DNA from: a virus
Reading direction: 5' to 3' (one strand)
Length of the DNA stretch: 29,807 nucleotides
Virus record (IMG/VR): IMGVR_UViG_3300044639_000944
Coordinates: 1-29,807 of that record
Shown here piece by piece: positions 8,949 through 11,524 of this stretch. The number at the start of each line of letters is the position of its first letter. Positions within the stretch are counted from its first letter, which is position 1. A model generated the notes under the pieces. It was given only the letters and a program-made list of their open reading frames with translations, was not told where the DNA came from and did not search any database. The translations under genes and the position numbers were made by a program.

Positions 8949-9220
8949 TCGGAGTGCTCCATCGCGCAGAAGGCGCACATCGCATGATCGCTCGGCGACG
9001 GCTTCGCGTGCACGACCTCGCGGTAATCGCAGTACGGGCAGGTGAGCGTCGTGGTCTCCGGCCCCGGCACGGGCCACCCTCGCGCGGCCCAGAGGTCGGC
9101 GTACTTGGCGGCCGGATCCTTGCACCAGTCGGCCTCGATGACGAGCCGCCTCGCCTCGTCGCGCTGCGCCGTGATCTCGTCGAGCGCGAGGAGTGCGGCT
9201 TGGAGTTCGCTGCTGCTCAT
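8945..9220 (-). CDS. Small zinc-ribbon protein (91 aa)
   Basis: The N-terminal half is a helical, Ala/Glu-rich segment (MSSSELQAALLALDEITAQR); the C-terminal half holds two Cys pairs, CPYC and CAFC, separated by about 19 residues, forming a probable zinc ribbon. ATG at 9220 follows a strong GGAGG and overlaps the previous stop (ATGA). It lies in a run of small DNA-binding proteins. I do not recognise the family; a role in nucleic-acid or protein binding is likely from the zinc ribbon but not shown. Confidence 0.72.
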   Translation of the reverse strand: MSSSELQAALLALDEITAQRDEARRLVIEADWCKDPAAKYADLWAARGWPVPGPETTTLTCPYCDYREVVHAKPSPSDHAMCAFCAMEHSE

Positions 9221-9609
9221 CGCCTCGCCTCCACTTCGCACGGGATCGACCTGGCCTCGCGCACGAGGGACTCCATCGAGGAGAGCAGCGTGAACGCGCG
9301 CTCCGTCCATTCGTCCCCGACCTCGCCGCCGATCGGCTCGGCCTCCTCGCGGCACTCGGCGAGGCACGCCGCGTAGCCGGCGATGTCGAGCGGGTTGTCG
9401 GCCTTCGGCGTGTGCTGCTCGCGCGCCAACTTGTCAAGGATCATCATGGTGGCCCAGTCCGCCGGCGTGAGCGGCGCAGCGAGTTTGTGCCCGAGAACGG
9501 CGTTGATCGCGCCGACCGTGCGCGCGAAGTGCCGCGCCGGAGGGCCGTAGGCCGAGCCGCGCTCCTCGACGATGCGGAGAGCCTCCCGGAGTAGTTGTGC
9601 CTTGTTCAT
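9217..9609 (-). CDS. DUF6378-like protein (MazG-like segment)
   Basis: The 130-aa protein has the pattern seen in DUF6378 phage proteins: RIVEERGSAYGPPARHF near the N-terminus and PADWATMMILDKLAREQH followed by ADNPLDIAGYAACLAE. The order Met-Lys-x-x-Arg, then D-x-x-D-x-x-G-Y, is typical. The helical layout with acidic residues is reminiscent of MazG-type all-alpha NTP pyrophosphohydrolases, though the metal-binding set is not clearly complete. Residues 100-130 are an extra helix. ATG at 9609 follows GAGGAG. Function in phages is unknown; nucleotide metabolism is a reasonable guess. Confidence 0.72.
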   Translation of the reverse strand: MNKAQLLREALRIVEERGSAYGPPARHFARTVGAINAVLGHKLAAPLTPADWATMMILDKLAREQHTPKADNPLDIAGYAACLAECREEAEPIGGEVGDEWTERAFTLLSSMESLVREARSIPCEVEARR

Positions 9610-9622
9610 CGTGCGCTCCTCG

Positions 9623-9871
9623 TCAGAATGGGAAGTCGGCCTCGGGGATCGGCGCAGGCGCGGCCTTCGGTGCGGCATCGCGCTCGCGCGGCTCTTGGAA
9701 CTTGAGCGACATGAACTTCTTCCCGCTCGCGGACTCCTTCACCCATGCGGCGATCTCGACCTTCACGCCGTTCACCATCGCGTCGCCGCGATAGTCCGGA
9801 GTGCGTTCGCCGGGTTGCTTCTTGTCGTTGCGGAAGAGTGCTCCGGTGTTCTCGCGTTGTTCGTAGGTCAT
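9623..9871 (-). CDS. DUF736-like protein with SSB-type C-terminal tip
   Basis: Start is the ATG at 9871 (AAGGAG 8 nt upstream) rather than a longer frame from 9907. The 82-aa protein opens with TYEQRENTGALFRNDKK and continues PDYRGDAMVNGVKVEIAAWV, then SGKKFMSLKFQEP: a small all-beta domain resembling DUF736 proteins. The last residues, PIPEADFPF after an Ala/Pro-rich linker, mimic the acidic tip of bacterial SSB proteins (D-x-x-x-PF), the peptide that recruits exonucleases, helicases and primase. Such a tail on a small beta-barrel suggests the phage's own ssDNA-binding protein, serving the nuclease/annealase pair encoded downstream. The single-strand binding itself is inferred. Confidence 0.7.
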   Translation of the reverse strand: MTYEQRENTGALFRNDKKQPGERTPDYRGDAMVNGVKVEIAAWVKESASGKKFMSLKFQEPRERDAAPKAAPAPIPEADFPF

Positions 9872-9887
9872 GTGGTGCTCCTTCTGG

Positions 9888-11120
9888 TTAGGGGTTGTGA
9901 TTCTCATACGCGGCGATACGCTCGCCGATCCAACTCATGCAGTTGCAGGCCATCGAGTTCCCGAGTGCCTTGTACCTAGGGCCGTCTGGGCATTGCTCGG
10001 CAGGCTTGCCACGGTACGGGATCATCGTCCAGTCATCCGGGAAACCTTGAAGTCTCTCGCACTCGCGAGGCGTGAGTCGGCGGACGGTCATCGCGTTTCC
10101 GACGATGGAGTGTCCGTTCCCATCAGAAGGGTCGGGATATCCACGCGCACCGCTTCCGCCTTTGATCGTGGCCGATGTATCGGTGAACGCCAACGCCGCA
10201 TGGGCCGCGTTGTCCTTGGCGAGCGTGTGGCACGGGTCGCCAGGTACGCGGTTCTGACGATTCACCGGGGCGGTGATCTGAAACAGGTCGTAGGGGACGG
10301 GAGCTACTGGGATATACGCTCCGTGCCCATCTAACTCGGTGTGCGACCGAAGGCCACGAGTGCCGAGCGTACCGGCGGTCGGCTGCGCGATCATGGTGAA
10401 TCCGTCCGCTCTGCTGTAGTCGTGGGCCGTCGTTTCAAGCGTTGGTGCTACTCGGTGACTTGTGATGCAACCGCCTCCAACGCCGCCTTCAGCATCGGCG
10501 GCAACGCCTTTCCCCTTCGCTCGGCGCGCCTCAAGATGCCGCTGCAAGCCCTCGGCGAGAGCGAGTACTTCGCCGGGAGCGGCCCAGTCTCGAGCACTTC
10601 GCTCAATGAGGCGACCAACGACGAAGACCCTGCGGCGGCGTTGCGGGACGGCTCTGGGCCATCGCCCCACTCGCAGGTATTGAGCGTCGAGCACCCGGTA
10701 GGCCCACCCATACCCGAGTTGCCCCAACGCCCCGAGGAAGGTTCCAAAATCCCGTCCTCCCCCGCTCGACAGAACACCGGGGACATTTTCCCACACGAGC
10801 CATCTCGGGCGCAGTCGATCAGCGATCGCCAGGTAGGTGAGCATGAGGTTTCCGCGTGGGTCGGCGAGTCCCTGTCGCAGTCCGGCGACGCTGAAGGACT
10901 GGCAGGGAGTTCCTCCGACCAGAAGGTCGATTGCACCTCGGGTGATGGGCCATTGTTCATGCTTCGTCATGTCTCCGTAGTTGGGGATGTTTGGGAATCG
11001 GTGCGCGAGCACCGCCGCCGGGAAGGGTTCGATCTCCGAGAATCCTACGGGTGTCCACCCGAGGTGATGCCACGCAACGCTCGCGGCCTCGATGCCGCTG
11101 CACACACTCAAGTATCGCAT
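9888..11120 (-). CDS. dcm: C5 cytosine-specific DNA methyltransferase
   Basis: The 410-aa protein has the C5-MTase motifs in order: motif I SVCSGIEAASVAWHHLG (5-21), motif IV GGTPCQSFSVAG with the catalytic C73, motif VI ENV (111-113), motif VIII QRRRR (160-164) and motif X RYKALGNSMACN near residue 390. The segment about 175-345 is the variable target-recognition region. ATG at 11120 overlaps the endolysin stop by 13 nt. No cognate restriction enzyme is encoded, so it is an orphan, probably protecting phage DNA from host restriction. Codon use seems less strictly GC3-biased than in the tail genes, hinting at separate acquisition. A long ORF in another frame lies inside it (see 10448-10960). 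Confidence 0.95.
   Translation of the reverse strand: MRYLSVCSGIEAASVAWHHLGWTPVGFSEIEPFPAAVLAHRFPNIPNYGDMTKHEQWPITRGAIDLLVGGTPCQSFSVAGLRQGLADPRGNLMLTYLAIADRLRPRWLVWENVPGVLSSGGGRDFGTFLGALGQLGYGWAYRVLDAQYLRVGRWPRAVPQRRRRVFVVGRLIERSARDWAAPGEVLALAEGLQRHLEARRAKGKGVAADAEGGVGGGCITSHRVAPTLETTAHDYSRADGFTMIAQPTAGTLGTRGLRSHTELDGHGAYIPVAPVPYDLFQITAPVNRQNRVPGDPCHTLAKDNAAHAALAFTDTSATIKGGSGARGYPDPSDGNGHSIVGNAMTVRRLTPRECERLQGFPDDWTMIPYRGKPAEQCPDGPRYKALGNSMACNCMSWIGERIAAYENHNP
10448..10960 (-). CDS. Overlapping ORF inside the methyltransferase gene (170 aa)
   Basis: On the same strand but in a different frame from the methyltransferase, an ATG-started ORF covers codons of motifs IV to VIII and the start of the recognition region. 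Its C-terminus (KYSLSPRACSGILRRAERR, then GKALPPMLKAALEAVA) reads like a genuine basic helical domain, and I recall very similar LSP-x-AC-x-GILRRA-x-RGK-x-LP strings in phage proteins that overlap Dcm-type genes. The N-terminal two thirds are Ser/Cys/Pro-rich and less protein-like. A GGAG lies 12 nt before the ATG, at the far edge of useful spacing. It may be a real overlapping gene or a frame whose conservation is a by-product of conserved methyltransferase motifs. Not proven. Confidence 0.4.
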   Translation of the reverse strand: MNNGPSPEVQSTFWSEELPASPSASPDCDRDSPTHAETSCSPTWRSLIDCARDGSCGKMSPVFCRAGEDGILEPSSGRWGNSGMGGPTGCSTLNTCEWGDGPEPSRNAAAGSSSLVASLSEVLETGPLPAKYSLSPRACSGILRRAERRGKALPPMLKAALEAVASQVTE

Positions 11121-11524
11121 CGTGCGTACTCCCGTGAAACCTTTGCAGCGTAGCCGTCCGTGGCTCTCCGGCGCGTTCCAGTTGCGCCCCGTGGCCCTCC
11201 ATTGTGGATCCGTGCGATGGTGTCGATCGACCAGTCCCTCGCGTAGCGCGATAGGTACGCGAGCACGACGCGCTCGGCGTAGGCTCGGTCGGTCACGGCC
11301 TCGTAGCCGCGAGCGCGCAGGCTCGGCTCGTGCTCGACCGCATCGAGCCAGTACACGCGGTGTATTTGGTACGCGCCGAGCGCGCGGCCATCGTCGCCGA
11401 CGGCGCGGTCTGGGTCGCGCGAGCCGCCCGTTTCAACCTGGCGTAGCGCGTCGAGGATCCGGCGGGTGTCCGTGCCGTCGGGAGGCGGCACGACGAGCGC
11501 GGCGGCGAGGAGGGCGGCGATCAT
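11108..11524 (-). CDS. Lytic transglycosylase-like endolysin with signal segment
   Basis: The 138-aa protein begins with a hydrophobic stretch (MIAALLAAALVVPPPDG) that could act as a signal or signal-anchor, although it lacks the usual basic start. The rest fits a lysozyme/SLT-like fold: a likely catalytic Glu31 in LRQVETGG, the GAYQI motif at 50-54, and a C-terminal ARIHNGGPRGATG, followed by DGYAAKVSREY. These proteins cleave the glycan strands of peptidoglycan. The ATG overlaps the previous stop (ATGA). It sits among early genes rather than beside the late membrane proteins. An exported endolysin would reduce the dependence on a large-pore holin. Lysozyme or transglycosylase chemistry cannot be distinguished here. 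Confidence 0.82.
   Translation of the reverse strand: MIAALLAAALVVPPPDGTDTRRILDALRQVETGGSRDPDRAVGDDGRALGAYQIHRVYWLDAVEHEPSLRARGYEAVTDRAYAERVVLAYLSRYARDWSIDTIARIHNGGPRGATGTRRRATDGYAAKVSREYARCDT

Follow-up and report, generated by a model that had tools for sequence, protein, structure and literature searches.

A conserved gene nested in the +1 frame of phage-type C5-cytosine DNA methyltransferase genes

Genes that lie wholly inside another gene are known from several systems, such as Rz1 in Rz, E in D of phage phiX174, and comS in srfAB. In Escherichia coli, vsr overlaps the 3' end of the C5-cytosine methyltransferase (C5-MTase) gene dcm in another frame. Methylase genes of mycobacteriophages may also carry the ShiLan element, a sporadic homing insertion that encodes an HNH endonuclease in the third frame without a detectable ribosome-binding site (PMC11855218). 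The locus described here resembles Rz1/Rz, E/D, and comS/srfAB in that a second protein is encoded wholly inside another gene, on the same strand and with its own start. It differs from them in that the host gene is a DNA methyltransferase gene, that the pair spans the phages and prophages of many phyla, and that the protein family has no described member. With dcm/vsr it shares a second gene that overlaps a C5-MTase gene in a different frame, but the nested product bears no relation to Vsr and is encoded within the catalytic region, whereas vsr overlaps the 3' end only. The ShiLan element is the closest case that our literature search found, but it differs in all of its defining features: the nested gene is not an insertion but is found clade-wide in the +1 frame, usually with a Shine-Dalgarno (SD) sequence. 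We considered and rejected the possibility that it is itself an HNH insertion of the ShiLan type, as it is found in all clade members and in the +1 frame, and no Pfam HNH match was obtained for 56 members.

The window (the whole stretch of DNA that was analyzed, a 29.8-kb virus record) contains portal, major head, tail, and recombination genes. The host gene was assigned as a C5-MTase by the PF00145 match and by the presence of motifs IV (PCQ) and VIII (QxRxR). A preliminary description of this DNA had pointed to a 170-codon, ATG-initiated open reading frame (ORF) in a shifted frame of the MTase gene, which we confirmed on the minus strand in the +1 frame (Table 1). The ORF is entirely within the MTase gene, and its product ends in ...KYSLSPRACSGILRRAERRGKALPPMLKAALEAVASQVTE. 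We conclude with high confidence that it is a real protein-coding gene; its translation is inferred, as there is no protein or ribosome-profiling evidence. The neighbors of the MTase gene, all on the minus strand, encode a weak DUF736-like protein (9623-9907), a DUF6378 protein (9217-9678), and a destabilase-like (lysozyme) protein (11108-11524), the ORF of which overlaps the MTase start by 13 bases.

Table 1. Features of the methyltransferase gene and its nested ORF (window coordinates)
Feature	Position	Strand	Remarks
C5-cytosine DNA methyltransferase, phage orphan-type, 410 aa	9888..11120	-	PF00145 E 4.2e-45; phrog_116 E 3e-87
Nested gene, +1 frame, 170 aa	10448..10960	-	start ATG 10958-10960; stop codon 10448-10450
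Conserved C-terminal helical domain of nested protein (SLSxxLE..P.rY.LS.kAC.GILRRA.kRGk.LP..L..AL)	10463..10612	-	
MTase motif VIII (QRRRRVFV), main frame	10620..10643	-	nested domain comes after motif VIII
MTase motif IV (GGTPCQ), main frame	10899..10916	-	overlapped by N-terminal part of nested ORF
N-terminal motif QSTFW (family form QL[TSD][FLMI][FW]; resembles clamp-binding motif)	10919..10933	-	GTG directly before
Possible alternative GTG start (GTG at -143), giving MQSTFW...	10934..10936	-	compare relatives starting MQLTFW
SD-like GGAG	10973..10976	-	12 nt upstream of nested ATG

The length of the nested ORF alone is no evidence for a gene, since long spurious ORFs are common in the window (118 ORFs of at least 100 amino acids, many of them expected by chance in such GC-rich DNA). 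However, shuffling of synonymous codons in the MTase gene predicted 7.8 stops across the nested stretch and none of 2000 shuffles stayed open, so the ORF is not a chance product. We extended the stop count to 211 dereplicated loci over 110 codons (70 codons before to 40 codons after the start of the domain), with expectations obtained by shuffling synonymous codons according to each gene's own usage. The hidden frame contained 0 stops against 658 expected. The counts for the other frame (732 against 830 expected) and for the same alternative frame downstream (757 against 763) were obtained from the same loci.

Divergence by codon position was then calculated from 119 non-overlapping sequence pairs. 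Inside the domain, third positions of the MTase frame (second positions of the hidden frame) differed at 0.06 to 0.28, and in the domain core the first positions of the MTase frame (third positions of the hidden frame) differed at 0.29 to 0.46. The ratio of third- to first-position divergence was 0.22 to 0.6 over the domain core versus 1.3 to 3.7 in nearly all bins outside the domain. Because the usual variability of third positions is inverted there, the substitution pattern in the C-terminal domain follows the hidden frame. Amino acid identity in the domain core was also higher for the hidden protein than for the MTase (0.776 versus 0.639), and substitutions that leave the MTase unchanged but alter the hidden protein were threefold rarer than outside the domain (0.062 per opportunity versus 0.18 to 0.21). 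At fourfold sites, divergence was about 0.40 to 0.5 upstream of the hidden ORF, fell to 0.24 to 0.30 at the nested start (approximately 104 codons before the domain), reached 0.14 to 0.24 just before the domain and about 0.05 to 0.15 within it, and returned to about 0.5 directly after the hidden stop. The block of synonymous constraint is the hidden ORF only, from start to stop. Two outcomes had been named beforehand as refuting a gene. Ordinary synonymous variation across the overlap was not seen, as the fourfold-site values demonstrate, and stops in close homologs with a conserved MTase occurred once in 324 loci and never in the fixed 110-codon stretch. The sole case is a P1-like prophage (locus L167) with a stop in the hidden domain and an intact MTase, and it implies that the nested gene can be lost while the MTase remains.

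The preliminary description had left open whether this was a true dual-coding gene or a frame kept open by constraint on the MTase. Under the second reading, the +1 frame would be open and similar among relatives merely through the conserved MTase protein and its codon usage, much as GC-rich DNA yields many spurious ORFs; the upstream half of the hidden protein does largely follow from conserved MTase motifs. However, shuffling that preserves the MTase produces hundreds of stops where none are seen, and in the domain the hidden protein is the better conserved of the two, with the main third positions the least variable. Since the synonymous constraint moreover covers the hidden ORF only, we regard a passively open frame as refuted, with next to no probability remaining; dual coding, on the other hand, is supported by stop avoidance, by the hidden-frame substitution pattern, and by the restriction of the constraint to the ORF. 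If an RNA or DNA element (a structure, binding site, or regulatory signal) were constrained in place of a protein, synonymous change would also be reduced, as by any such element. However, the constraint shows the three-base periodicity of the +1 frame with a free third position, stops are completely absent, and the product is predicted to fold with confidence; we consider such an element scarcely credible. A programmed +1 frameshift, in which MTase ribosomes slip into the hidden frame and add a new C-terminal tail to a truncated MTase, was our initial hypothesis, prompted by a Faecalibacterium phage, FP_Toutatis, in which a frame change joins the N-terminal half of the MTase to the domain. 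The position of the domain directly after catalytic motif VIII also suits this origin. It was dropped on the basis of the constraint map: constraint begins at the nested start, far upstream of the domain, and many relatives possess an SD and an ATG as well as an N-terminal motif under selection. The FP_Toutatis change itself sits at a run of eight Gs, where it could equally be a mutation or a sequencing error, and we consider frameshifting very improbable. The coincidence of the constrained block with the hidden ORF argues against both an RNA element and frameshifting in the vicinity of the domain.

The preliminary description had mentioned very similar strings in phage proteins overlapping Dcm-like genes, and this proved correct: tblastn with the hidden protein matched 118 phage records, and a search with the domain consensus matched 135 records from phages and 532 from plasmids, most of the plasmids being P1-like. 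Over its last 40 residues, the hidden protein was 60 to 75% identical in phages that infect Vibrio, Ruminococcus, Faecalibacterium, and further hosts; its tblastn match also reached Mycobacterium, cyanobacterial, and P1-like phages. In eight loci that were translated, the domain followed MTase motif VIII (QRRRR), lay in the +1 frame with respect to that portion of the MTase, and had its stop soon afterwards. In order not to select for the hidden frame, we gathered loci using the MTase N terminus only (157 viral loci and 80 loci from bacterial genomes). The domain was present in 235 of these 237 loci, and the remaining two were on contigs that stop just past the match. All 324 loci with a domain hit (MTase-found plus domain-found loci, most of them collected through MTase similarity alone) had the +1 register. 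According to record titles, the bacterial loci came from Pseudomonadota, Actinomycetota, Acidobacteriota, Desulfobacterota, Spirochaetota, Planctomycetota, Verrucomicrobiota-type lineages, and Bacillota; the cyanobacterial phage Pan4 adds one more phylum, for a total of at least nine bacterial phyla across phages and prophages.

A PF00145 search in 20 of these genomes yielded 30 C5-MTase loci, in which the C5-MTases of the GTPCQSFSVAG type were those with the hidden domain. Typical restriction-type C5-MTases (AGFPCQPFS, GGPPCQGFS) in the same 20 genomes had no hidden domain, and the hidden frame therefore belongs to one MTase clade and is not shared by C5-MTases generally. Neither a stand-alone copy of the domain nor a copy outside this clade was seen among the best hits inspected, although the bounds of the clade were not exhausted. 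A class survey of 143 genomes found the full-length profile in only two, one of which was a diverged homolog (locus L362), indicating that the nested gene is uncommon per genome. The dmt gene of phage P1 holds an open 157-amino-acid copy (AF234172, 66728-67201) with GTGGAGcttgcaaATG, which makes the nested gene testable in a standard laboratory system.

In the group to which the window belongs, the hidden frame is bounded upstream by a stop that arises from the MTase residues MT in GDMT. Most relatives have an SD followed by ATG, e.g., AAGGAGtggccagATG or GTGGAGttagccaATG, and a protein N terminus of the form M.QLT[FLM][FW]. The start was ATG in 90 of 118 relatives, and an SD of at least 4 nt was found in 78 of the 118 compared with 10% in the control. 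The SD spacing in the window's subgroup is longer than ideal, at 12 nt versus 7 to 8 nt in most relatives. Of the 154 loci with a start upstream of motif IV, 107 had the N-terminal motif (2.0 expected), as did 19 of the 52 with a start downstream of it (0.6 expected); the regular expressions used for these counts were partly tuned on the data. Because translation would begin at a different point of the MTase gene in each group, their common N terminus is not inherited from the MTase sequence. Judged by these signals in the DNA, the nested gene appears to have its own translation start.

Nested proteins are usually 140 to 170 amino acids long, and their disordered, low-complexity middle mostly follows from the MTase codons. 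An AlphaFold model of the full-length protein (55 aligned sequences) had low confidence for the N-terminal 118 residues and pLDDT values of 74 to 98 for residues 121 to 170 (92 to 98 in the core of the C-terminal segment), with helices at 119-125, 136-149, and 155-168. A domain-only model gave the same C-terminal helical hairpin. This conserved hairpin is basic, in line with the preliminary description. Pfam, NCBIfam, PADLOC, and PDB sequence searches with the nested protein returned nothing credible, and the window's nested ORF alone matched no Pfam or PHROG family. The domain model matched no PDB structure at an E value of ≤0.001, and in a viral structure library it matched only Thibault gp104 and one "MTase" annotation containing the same segment; no fold match assigned a function to the hairpin. 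In the fold search with the whole model, the best hit, domain 2 of sigma-A (Z score, 3.9), was too weak to use. PHROG 16143 ("DNA methyltransferase," 139 amino acids) was matched by 44 of 56 hidden-frame proteins (best E value, 8.8e-13), over only about profile positions 61 to 133. Given these matches, its label seems to come from the wrong frame, and the family is probably mixed-frame or mislabeled and partly made of the hidden frame.

The beta-clamp-binding consensus is QLxLF (PMC4549789). The pentapeptide in the flexible N terminus of the nested protein, a glutamine followed by hydrophobic and aromatic residues, resembles a form of this motif, from which binding is only inferred. Known beta-clamp binders (e.g., insertion sequence transposases [PMC4549789]) similarly carry a Q-x-x-hydrophobic-aromatic peptide in a flexible terminus, but for the nested protein the window's version of the motif is weak, and some members have lost it. 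The literature-style form Q..[LMI]F was found in 56 of 211 loci compared with 3.0 expected, and clamp-like members have QLSLF, QLDLF, QQDLF, QLTLF, or QLTMF near the N terminus. Phenylalanine stands at motif position 4 where the underlying MTase residues leave it as the main hydrophobic option, and in other MTase contexts the motif is nearer the canonical form. The window's own QSTFW is an imperfect match to the clamp motif within the low-confidence N terminus of the model. Members from P1 and Vibrio phages have no clamp motif at their start (MQLTTN and MQSTNN), although these phages presumably rely on the host clamp.

The explanation that we prefer has two parts. The first has strong computational support: the nested gene originated through overprinting, in all probability a single time, in an ancestral member of one phage-type MTase clade and has been retained since, and its protein is inferred to be made from the MTase mRNA by initiation at an internal start. 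The second is an inference. The N-terminal motif of the protein may dock on the bacterial beta sliding clamp, and its C-terminal hairpin may bind a partner, the simplest candidates being the MTase and its DNA. The nested protein could in this way recruit the MTase to freshly replicated DNA, and phage DNA would be methylated during replication. The supply of the two proteins would be coupled because one mRNA makes both. This mechanism is unproven, as there are no DnaN binding data, and because the P1 and Vibrio members lack the motif we hold it only tentatively, at somewhat less than an even chance, and retain two rivals. The fuller proposal, that an ancient overprinted gene encodes a clamp-binding adaptor coupling phage methylation to replication, as a bacterial-virus counterpart of PCNA-tethered DNMT1, is more doubtful still.

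Both rivals accept the nested protein as real. It may act directly on the MTase or on host restriction (as a regulator, specificity factor, or anti-restriction partner), in which case the N-terminal motif would not be a clamp motif at all. Modulation of the MTase or of host restriction was also the guess of the preliminary description, whereas the conserved N-terminal motif is a more specific pointer to the clamp. The one-to-one linkage with the MTase clade is in keeping with such a role, as is the imperfect or missing motif in P1, in Vibrio phages, and in the window, but the strong enrichment of Q..[LMI]F near the N terminus in several unrelated MTase contexts is not; we regard direct action as possible without being likely. 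Staphylococcal phages encode clamp-binding inhibitors, and the clamp-like N terminus could likewise serve to inhibit or hijack the host clamp and redirect replication without any partnership with the MTase. The lack of copies found outside the MTase clade and the maintenance of the gene in temperate phages and prophages make this rather unlikely, with the qualification that its confinement to the MTase gene might by itself account for the linkage, even if the two proteins share no function.

The nested gene represents a new protein family that lies concealed in many genomes. Our literature search, which did not cover most subscription papers, found no description of this MTase overlap, and database annotation generally shows the MTase only, in agreement with the original suggestion of an undescribed gene. 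Overlapping genes are usually held to be young and local; this one appears fixed across a large MTase clade, the carriers of which span all of the phyla listed above and include phage P1, and it offers a strong natural system for the study of dual coding. It is obscured or wrongly labeled by gene callers and by families like PHROG 16143. It may possibly explain how phages methylate their DNA in time and, if the clamp adaptor is true, an enzyme and its adaptor would be written in two frames of the same DNA.

Several loci were irregular. In FP_Toutatis (L007:1542-2953), the MTase frame changes at the G8 run, which fuses its N-terminal half in frame to the hidden domain; phase variation, decay, or a sequencing error may account for this. 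Mycobacteriophage Thibault (L327:821-1653) combines a ShiLan-type element with the nested domain: its MTase gene carries an inserted HNH gene in yet another frame and has a frameshift in its N-terminal part, and the hidden C-terminal domain persists as gp104, for which a new start is used. At least two records (Thibault gp104 and phage 813R1) list part of the hidden frame as a hypothetical protein, and both have a broken MTase frame. Opposite both the MTase and the nested gene, the window also contains an antisense ORF of 270 amino acids (10341-11153, plus strand) without a Pfam match. It is unsupported as a gene: antisense stops across relatives were partly depleted in one register (288 versus 607 expected), yet they were common, and the depletion is probably a by-product of double coding. 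Straboviridae phage Mm5 and jumbo phage CcrSC (loci L364 and L365), which are expected to bring their own replication proteins, keep a diverged hidden domain without the clamp-like N-terminal motif, an anecdotal observation. In Pseudomonas phage TC7, a gene annotated as "DNA polymerase III beta subunit" (L373:4684-5358; annotation unchecked) lies two genes upstream of the MTase, and the nested product begins with MQLTLLE.
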